Part shown: positions 29,183 through 32,044 of the stretch, in pieces
Position numbering within the stretch: the first letter of the stretch is position 1
Layout of the letters: every line of letters begins with the position of its first letter
Origin: Desulfobulbaceae bacterium
Lineage (GTDB): Bacteria; Desulfobacterota; Desulfobulbia; Desulfobulbales; Desulfobulbaceae
Assembly (NCBI GenBank): GCA_019163135.1
Contig: JAFLKR010000073.1
Location: 1 to 64,000, forward strand
DNA: 64,000 bases
Reading direction: 5' to 3'
Notes under the pieces: model-generated
The model's database searches: none
Told to the model about the DNA's origin: nothing
What the model saw: the letters and a program-made list of their open reading frames with translations, nothing else
Translations under genes and position numbers: made by a program

Positions 29183-29494
29183 ATGGAGAATAATGCGGAA
29201 TTAATTCGCTTGGAGGAGTTTGTAGATAAACTGTTGACGAAATACAATAACCTGAAGGCTGAGTATCACGCGCTGCAGGATACCCTGCGGGAACGTGATG
29301 CTGAATGTGCCGATCTGAAAAATAATGTTTTCAATCTTAGTACTGAGCGTTCTGAGGTCGGAAATCGGGTGGCAGGTTTGATAGGTCGTATTGAGCAGTG
29401 GGAATGCGAGCATGATGCTGCTGCTGAAAAAAGCAATAATAGCGGTGTGCAGGGTTTTTTATTCAGCGATGACGCTGAAAGTAAAAACAATTGA
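29183..29494 (+). CDS. zapB: ZapB-like coiled-coil division protein
   Basis: A 103-residue protein, nearly all coiled coil (LEEFVDKLLTKYNNLKAEYHALQDTLRERDAEC..) with an acidic flexible tail. Position immediately before zapA supports ZapB, which joins the FtsZ ring through ZapA in characterised bacteria. GGGA precedes the ATG. Coiled coils resemble each other easily, so the name relies mainly on context. Confidence 0.75.
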   Translation: MENNAELIRLEEFVDKLLTKYNNLKAEYHALQDTLRERDAECADLKNNVFNLSTERSEVGNRVAGLIGRIEQWECEHDAAAEKSNNSGVQGFLFSDDAESKNN

Positions 29495-29512: not shown

Positions 29513-29800
29513 ATGCAGGATCGTCTTGTTCGCTTCAATCTCTTCGGACAGGAATATACTTTTTACAGTGACGCTCCAGAGGATGAGGTTGAATCAGCTA
29601 TAGCTCTTCTTCGTCATGAGTTGGAAGGCAATGAAAAAATGAGCCGAAGTTCCGTGCCCTCAAACAAGGTGCTGGTTTTGGGGTGTTTACGCATGGCGGC
29701 TAAATATACCCAACTGAATCGAGAGTATAAGGAGTTTCGGCAAGAGCAGGAACGGTCGGTTGCCCATCTGATCGACAAGGTTTCCGCTGAATTGGACTAA
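29513..29800 (+). CDS. zapA: Cell division protein ZapA
   Basis: A 95-residue FtsZ-ring protein. RLVRFNLFGQEYTFYSDAPEDEVESAIALL is the globular ZapA head and the rest is a coiled-coil tail. It bundles FtsZ filaments. It lies 18 nt after zapB and is followed by the 6S RNA candidate, a gene order known in many proteobacteria. Confidence 0.85.
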   Translation: MQDRLVRFNLFGQEYTFYSDAPEDEVESAIALLRHELEGNEKMSRSSVPSNKVLVLGCLRMAAKYTQLNREYKEFRQEQERSVAHLIDKVSAELD

Positions 29801-29820
29801 TCTGCTAGTAAAATATCGTT

Positions 29821-29847
29821 TTGTTTGGCAGGTCATTCTGATATACT
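29821..29847 (+). promoter_or_regulatory. Promoter of the 6S RNA candidate
   Basis: A -10 TATACT (29842-29847) differs from consensus at one base. The -35 is less clear: TTGTTT (29821-29826) leaves a 15-bp spacer. Transcription would start at about 29854, which sets the proposed RNA 5' end. Confidence 0.55.
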
Positions 29848-29853
29848 ATTTTT

Positions 29854-30039
29854 AAGAACACAATGTGGCCCCTGCTCTGTTGGTGATTAACGGAGTATTA
29901 AGCCAACTCACATGATTAGGGTAGCTTTATTGTCGAAATATGGAAATCTTAACTGCTTTCCAGACGGCGACATGGGCATTACCCACCTAATTATATTAGG
30001 TTTTGATCATTCCGTTGACACGGCAGCGTGGGGGTTTTT
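29854..30039 (+). ncRNA. ssrS: 6S RNA candidate
   Basis: About 186 nt immediately downstream of zapA. CCCCTGCTCTG (29869-29879) pairs with CAGCGTGGGGG (30024-30034) with one mismatch, then AACGGA with TCCGTT. A central bulge follows, containing ACCTAATTATATTAGGT on the 3' side. Then come ATTAGGGTA/TACCC..TAAT and an end hairpin TGTCG..TGGAAA/TTTCCA..CGACA. The 3' end is GGGGG followed by TTTTT. Length, rod shape with a central bubble and position after zapA all match 6S RNA, the sigma70-polymerase inhibitor. No alignment was run. Confidence 0.68.
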
Positions 30040-30478
30040 AAGATTACCAGCTAATCAGACCGCTGTTTAATATAGACACCGCTTTGGTGGTGTTTAAAGA
30101 GGATAGTAGCGTGTGCAGAGTAACGGACAGAGTAGGTCTAGTGCTAGAAAGACAATCCTGAGGCGATCAGGTTTACTATATTTGAGTAACCTTCCACACA
30201 GGCTGTTTTCAAGTAAAACAACTGCCGGAATTTTTTTTCATAGGCGGTATTTTTCTTGTTATTCTATAGGTCTATGACCACAGAGTGTGCTAAGCAGGTG
30301 CTGGACGAGCCCCTGATGGGCCTGTTGCTGTTATTATAGCAGTGTTTCTGTTTTGTAACTCTCTTCCTCCAAACGTCACTCCCGCTCTTTTCCTCTCTTC
30401 TTGCAGCAACTTCGTTACTTTGAGCGATCAAAGGGTTGGGTTGCGCTATTTTTTATATATTCAAGTAGGTGTTTTGAC
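30040..30478 (+). other. Structured 439-bp stretch upstream of rny
   Basis: No credible ORF. Several hairpins are visible: ACACC..GGTGT (30076-30093), CCTGA-GGCGA-TCAGG (30158-30172), GGTTTACT/AGTAACC (30170-30191), and GCCC..GGGC (30309-30321), with GTGTG near 30111 able to pair with CACAC near 30195. It may be a second small RNA, the RNase Y mRNA leader, or both. No known riboswitch class was recognised. Confidence 0.4.
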
Positions 30479-32044
30479 ATGGAATTAAATGTGATAACGC
30501 TGCTTTTGGCGTTGGTGAATCTAGTCGCCGGGCTGGCTATTGGTATACTTCTGCGTAAAAGGCTGGTGGAGGGCAACCAGAAAAATATTGCCTTGCAGGG
30601 GCGGCAGATTATTGAAAACTCCATCAGCGAAGCCGAACAGATAAAAAAAGAGGCCTTGCTGCAGGCAAAAGAAGAATCTTTTTTAATCAAGCAGGAAGCT
30701 GATCGCGAACTGAAGGCGAGTCGGCAGGAACTTAAGGATGATCAGCGTCGACTGAATCGCAAGTTTGATGAAATCCAACGTGAATTTCAAATTCTGGAAG
30801 AAAAACAGACGAGTTTGAAATATCGTGAGGAACATTTGGCCGCCAGTGAAGTAGAGGTCGTTGAGAAGAAACAACAACTTGATACTCTTGTCGATGAGCA
30901 GCGCTATAAATTAGAGAAGATTGCCGGAATTGATCGCGATGAGGCCAAGCAGCAACTCATGCAATCCATTGAAAGTGAGGCACGTATGGATTGCGCTAAA
31001 AGGCTTTCGCGCATAGAAAATGAAATGAAAATGGAGGCTGATCGTAAAGGCAAGAACATTCTGGCGTTAGCCATAGCGAGATATGCCGGGGATTATGTCG
31101 CCGATAAGACGGTATCGATGGTTCCCCTGCCTAATGATGAGATGAAAGGGCGAATTATAGGCCGTGAGGGTCGAAATATCCGTGCCATCGAGGCGGCGAC
31201 CGGTATCGATATCATTATTGATGATACCCCTGAAGCGGTTATTCTTTCGGGTTTCAATCCTATACGACGGGAGATTGCCCGTCGTGCGCTGGAACAACTC
31301 ATTTCCGATGGGCGGATTCATCCGGCTCGTATTGAAGAGGTTGTTGCGAAGGTATCCGAGGAACTTGAGGTTGGTATTCGAGAATCCGGGGAACAGGCAA
31401 CCTTTGATGTCGGCGCCCATGGTATGCATGTGGACTTGATCAATTTGATCGGCCGCCTCAAATACCGCACCAGTTATGGCCAGAATATCCTGCAGCACTC
31501 CTTAGAGGTCGCCTTCCTTTGCGGGGTGATGGCTGCGGAGTTGGGTTTGGATGTTAAAAAAGCAAAAAGGGCCGGCCTGTTGCATGATATCGGCAAGGCA
31601 GTCGATCATGAGGTAGAAGGGTCCCATGCGATCATCGGCCGTGACCTTGCCCGTAAATACGGCGAGGCCGAGGATATCGTTTACGCCATCGGTGCCCATC
31701 ACGAAGACCAACCGCCTAAGAGCGTGCTGGACGTGCTGGTGCAGTCAGCAGATGCTCTTTCCGGAGCACGGCCTGGGGCCAGAAAGGAGATGCTGCAGAG
31801 TTATGTCAAACGCCTTGATGATCTCGAAAATATCGCCAATAGCTTTAGCGGCGTCGACAAATCTTATGCCATCCAAGCTGGGCGTGATCTCCGCATTATC
31901 GTTGATAGTCAGAAGGTCAAGGATGAGGAGGCGACTCTGTTGAGTCGCGATATAGCCAAGGCAATCGAAGAGCAGTTGACCTATCCGGGACAAATCCGGG
32001 TTACGGTCATTCGTGAGACCAGAGCGGTGGAATACGCCAAGTAA
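30479..32044 (+). CDS. rny: Ribonuclease Y
   Basis: A 521-residue membrane-anchored endoribonuclease that initiates mRNA decay. An N-terminal helix (residues 5-22), a long coiled coil (about 30-190), a KH domain with [22 protein letters not shown], and an HD domain with [12 protein letters not shown] (metal-binding) are all present. The ATG at 30479 gives the standard [12 protein letters not shown] start; the earlier track start at 30401 adds a non-homologous prefix. AGTAGGTG lies upstream. tyrS follows after 6 nt. Confidence 0.94.

Follow-up and report, generated by a model that had tools for sequence, protein, structure and literature searches.

6S RNA is the small RNA by which bacteria hold back their main RNA polymerase, and the synthesis of product RNAs releases it from the polymerase again. 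In beta- and gammaproteobacteria the known gene arrangement is zapB-zapA-ssrS, followed by fau or EVE (PMC7641849), and in Oleidesulfovibrio alaskensis G20, likewise a sulfate reducer but a different one from the organism considered here, a 6S RNA, also in single copy, has been predicted computationally (PMC11124144). In the openly licensed papers searched, none was found that links 6S RNA with Desulfobulbus, nor any that links 6S RNA and zapA with a Desulfo- name or with the Deltaproteobacteria. The DNA analysed here, referred to as the window, is a stretch of 64,000 nt from a Desulfobulbaceae bacterium, and its positions 29854-30039 (plus strand) almost certainly encode the single 6S RNA (ssrS) of this organism, which very probably belongs to the Desulfobulbus group. 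This identification draws on homology to the Rfam family RF00013, on a structure conserved with covariation, on the presence of one copy only, on the synteny with zapB-zapA and on conservation of the -10 box.

Compared with the RF00013 (6S/SsrS) family as a whole, the locus shares a match over the full length of the model, the rod with a central bulge, a predicted size of about 180 nt, zapA upstream and single copy. It differs in a score just below the gathering cut-off, in a bulge whose 3' side bears a small, stable hairpin, and in the downstream gene, which is rny here whereas fau/ygfA or EVE follows in known 6S loci. With E. coli ssrS (zapA-ssrS-ygfA) it has in common zapB-zapA upstream on the same strand and a sigma70-type promoter of its own, predicted in the present case; on the other hand, rny replaces ygfA, and in the Desulfobulbus group the promoter lies at varying distances from the 6S body.

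A first-pass annotation of this DNA had proposed a 6S candidate between zapA and rny and a search with RF00013 as a check. The candidate is borne out by a full-length RF00013 match, covariation in 45 relatives, zapA-6S synteny and single copy. The conserved 6S body (29866-30038, plus strand) aligns with the full model (1-187) at 44.7 bits, with an E-value of 1.4e-7 in a search run at an E-value threshold. As this falls 1.7 bits short of the curated threshold of 46.4 bits, a routine Rfam scan misses the gene, and scanning the whole window at the Rfam curated cut-offs gave zero matches. Genome-wide it is the sole RF00013 match, in an assembly with an estimated completeness of 98.95%. Related genomes carry RF00013 matches in 52 of 56 cases (the genome of the window counted), 48 of the 56 exceeding the cut-off. 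Since the Rfam score was borderline, a lineage covariance model was built from 38 relatives, with the window and its closest sister excluded. This leave-out model recovers the locus at 161.5 bits, with an E-value of 5.7e-45 for the window, and as a single copy across its own genome; it also gives a weaker match on the minus strand of the same locus (28.1 bits), which is expected because the complement of a rod-like RNA is partly alike. The E-values from RF00013 and from the leave-out model exclude chance, and the locus is an ordinary, well-supported 6S RNA gene that lies below the default cut-off. Among the relatives, G022 has a normal 6S RNA and in addition a very weak second RF00013 match (L049, G022:C30:17159-17325; 18.1 bits, E 0.19), which is probably due to chance.

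The computed fold of the 6S RNA reaches -64.9 kcal/mol, against -44.67 +/- 3.7 kcal/mol for 200 dinucleotide shuffles, none of which is as low (z -5.47). Its closing stem (helix 1; 29868-30035, with the 5' arm from about 29868 and the 3' arm to about 30035, plus strand) is built from 8 bp and, after one mismatch, another 6 bp. The manual fold of the first-pass annotation, with an outer stem of 11 bp and one mismatch, is close to this, and its second helix, central bulge with a 3'-side hairpin and end hairpin are all present. Beyond the second helix, a large one-sided bulge carries the small hairpin on its 3' side (29988-29998, plus strand; UAAU...AUUA) and leads into the end arm, a terminal stem-loop at 29919-29984 (plus strand). 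The 5' side of the central bulge (29905-29918, plus strand), the predicted promoter-mimicking bubble, is unpaired in the consensus.

Absence of covariation in related genomes had been named beforehand as evidence that would speak against a 6S RNA; covariation was instead strong in the 45 relatives aligned. The RNAalifold consensus of these sequences contains 49 pairs, and 94.8% of the cells (49 pairs by 45 sequences) hold standard pairs. Changes on both sides occur in 29 of the 49 pairs. Cells with such changes number 231, the shuffles giving 56.8 +/- 7.9, and all 500 shuffles, which ignore relatedness, fall short of the observation on every measure. Sliding the partners by 1-3 columns lowers pairing to at most 48.6%, a control that leans in favour of the structure, which was derived from the alignment, the alignment itself not having been fitted to the structure. 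The leave-out lineage model serves as the independent check on both controls. Covariation extends over all nine 6S consensus helices, and these form the closing stem, the second helix, the end arm and the small 3'-side hairpin of the bulge. In the closing stem 96.7% of cells are paired and 6 of 15 pairs have changed on both sides, in the end arm (helices 4-8) 13 of 17 pairs have done so, and in the small hairpin (helix 9) 95.5% of cells are paired and the inner pair shows a compensatory change from UA to CG.

The genes on either side were identified by Pfam matches above cut-off, all on the plus strand: zapB (29183-29494; PF06005, 36.8 bits) and zapA (29513-29800; PF05164, 36.2 bits), both for cell division proteins, upstream, and rny (30479-32044; PF12072, PF00013 and PF01966, i.e. 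RNase_Y_N, KH and HD), encoding RNase Y, downstream. The order zapB-zapA-RNA, as given in the first-pass annotation, is thereby confirmed, and the order zapB-zapA-6S-rny is kept through genus, family and order. By tblastn, almost every locus of the genus, family and order has zapB and zapA before 6S and rny after it, and in most relatives zapA is the immediate upstream neighbour. Deviations come mainly from short contigs or from loci in which zapA or zapB gave no match; at L015, L019, L023 and L045, tblastn did not find zapA, and 6S and rny are present at all four.

A promoter for the 6S RNA is predicted at 29839-29847 (plus strand) as the extended -10 element TGATATACT, with the hexamer TATACT at 29842-29847 and a weak -35 region around 29819-29826. 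Both the position of TATACT and a 5' end at 29854, which is +7 from the -10 box, stand as first proposed, the 5' end as a prediction. In the 70 nt ahead of the 6S body, 30 of 34 genomes of the genus and family carry the motif TATANT, where shuffled sequence would give 5.2, and 15 genomes carry it as the extended TGNTATANT. Among the 30 relatives with the box, its spacing from the 6S body is almost always 11-31 nt and is 60 nt in one genome, and even the window and its nearest sister differ by 8 nt. Because of this variation, comparison does not fix the 5' end. A promoter-scan match further downstream (TTGACA-18-TAAGAT, 30015-30044) was discounted, as its letters are fixed by the closing stem of the 6S RNA.

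At the 3' end, the body runs into a T run, GGGGGTTTTT, located at exactly 30030-30039 (plus strand), where five G and five T had been noted before; a 3' end at this T run is plausible from the sequence. The predicted primary transcript, bounded by the -10 box and the T run, would thus measure 186 nt (29854-30039), a fair estimate, with both ends predicted, and not a conserved property. Alternatively, the primary transcript could be longer, ending at a hairpin at 30048-30065 or reading on into rny, with nucleases cutting its 3' end back to about 30038; this would concern the ends alone and is compatible with the 6S identity. That hairpin (plus strand; CAGC...GCTG followed by TTTAATATA) possibly acts as a read-through terminator or as a 3' trailer of a pre-6S RNA. 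The hairpin and its T-rich stretch recur at the same place in many members of the genus and family, and in E. coli, ssrS and ygfA share a dicistronic transcript that is processed, as cited in PMC7641849; against this, the closing stem itself ends in five G and five T, which may suffice to stop transcription. On balance we lean slightly towards the shorter transcript and regard the longer one as a real possibility. The stem letters of the 30048-30065 hairpin differ among relatives.

It is very improbable that the structure is a cis element, either the 3' UTR of zapA or a leader of rny, rather than a free-standing 6S RNA. Its position on the same strand between the two genes, together with the conservation of the gap that leads on to rny, would fit such an element. 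Against it stand the full-length RF00013 homology, the covariation over all nine 6S helices, the conserved -10 box of its own that follows the stop codon of zapA and the T run where the closing stem ends, and the same place is occupied by 6S RNA in beta- and gammaproteobacteria (PMC7641849). The score slightly under the Rfam cut-off could also be taken as the mark of a decaying copy with a working one elsewhere, an explanation that we consider negligible given the intact helices, the lineage-model score with standard pairing almost throughout, and the failure to find a second copy in a genome this close to complete.

Taking the locus as a 6S RNA gene, its function would be that of known 6S RNAs. 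It would be transcribed from its own sigma70 promoter and fold into a rod whose central bulge mimics an open promoter; it would then bind the sigma70 RNA polymerase holoenzyme, the housekeeping form, and block promoter binding as growth slows. Release would follow when the polymerase copies the 6S RNA as a template into short product RNAs, expected to start near U29908, a position that we assume by comparison with the E. coli 6S region. This mechanism follows established 6S biology (E. coli, as cited in PMC7641849, with release by product RNAs as general background) and the structure that the locus has in common with known 6S RNAs.

The gap between 6S and rny (30040-30478, roughly 440 nt) contains a conserved hairpin element, CTGAGGCGATCAGGTTTACTATA (30158-30180, plus strand), recognised by a pattern search of relatives, with the consensus CTGAT-NNN-ATCAGGTTTACNATA. 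The pattern occurs once per genome in 18 of 56 relatives, and a reversed-pattern control gave zero. Almost every genus and family member has a looser variant, if the diverged hairpin of one subclade is counted as such; it mostly lies 113-144 nt past the 6S body, and 60-71 nt past it in that subclade. L023 has a short 6S-rny gap of 146 nt and lacks the element. The stricter pattern gave 16 hits in a collection of 84,980 species: 14 follow the 6S motif CCACCTA at a distance of 160-395 nt, one is too near a contig end to judge, and one, in a Bacteroidales MAG, is probably chance. Where the relatives with the element are named, they are species of Desulfobulbus or MAGs of the Desulfobulbaceae, which makes it very probable that the window comes from the Desulfobulbus group. 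In these pattern searches the element is thus essentially confined to the Desulfobulbaceae and nearly always downstream of 6S. Several sequences have G-U pairs in its stem, and in G026 both sides have changed with the pairing kept, suggesting an RNA rather than a DNA site; three other sequences have a mismatch in the stem. As 6S and rny are always neighbours, the element gives no choice between the two as its partner.

Just upstream of rny lies a terminator-like hairpin followed by a T run (30403-30454, plus strand), possibly an attenuator of rny. In G002, G013, G017 and G023 a near-perfect hairpin, then TTTTTT and ATATA, occupies the same place. Based on the single-copy conserved hairpin and the terminator-like hairpin against the start of rny in several species, the gap could be a functional RNA, namely a structured rny leader specific to Desulfobulbus and its family, a reading that we put forward tentatively and consider rather unlikely. 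In Bacillus subtilis RNase Y cleaves its own 5' UTR (PMC10303841), and by analogy a regulatory leader of rny would be a reasonable idea. Searched against Rfam, the gap of the window gave no match with an E-value below 0.27, and the gap in 20 relatives gave nothing consistent other than 6S. Owing to the poor alignment of the gap, one short hairpin was the only supported structure in its consensus fold, and z-scores against shuffled energies are only -0.03 to -3.1; for these reasons no general claim of a structured RNA is made for the gap. RNase P RNA was ruled out as its identity, as this RNA lies on another contig (299.8 bits), and a CRISPR-repeat-like match at 30064-30100 was taken as chance (20.4 bits against a cut-off of 45).

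For the Desulfobulbus group, these results add a 6S gene overlooked at the standard Rfam cut-off, which helps annotation. They also show that zapB-zapA-6S synteny holds in this group, with rny downstream, and leave the general picture of 6S RNA unchanged. The conserved gap adjoining 6S may merit separate study: if it is indeed an rny leader, it might couple RNase Y levels to read-through from 6S or to cleavage of its own leader by RNase Y.
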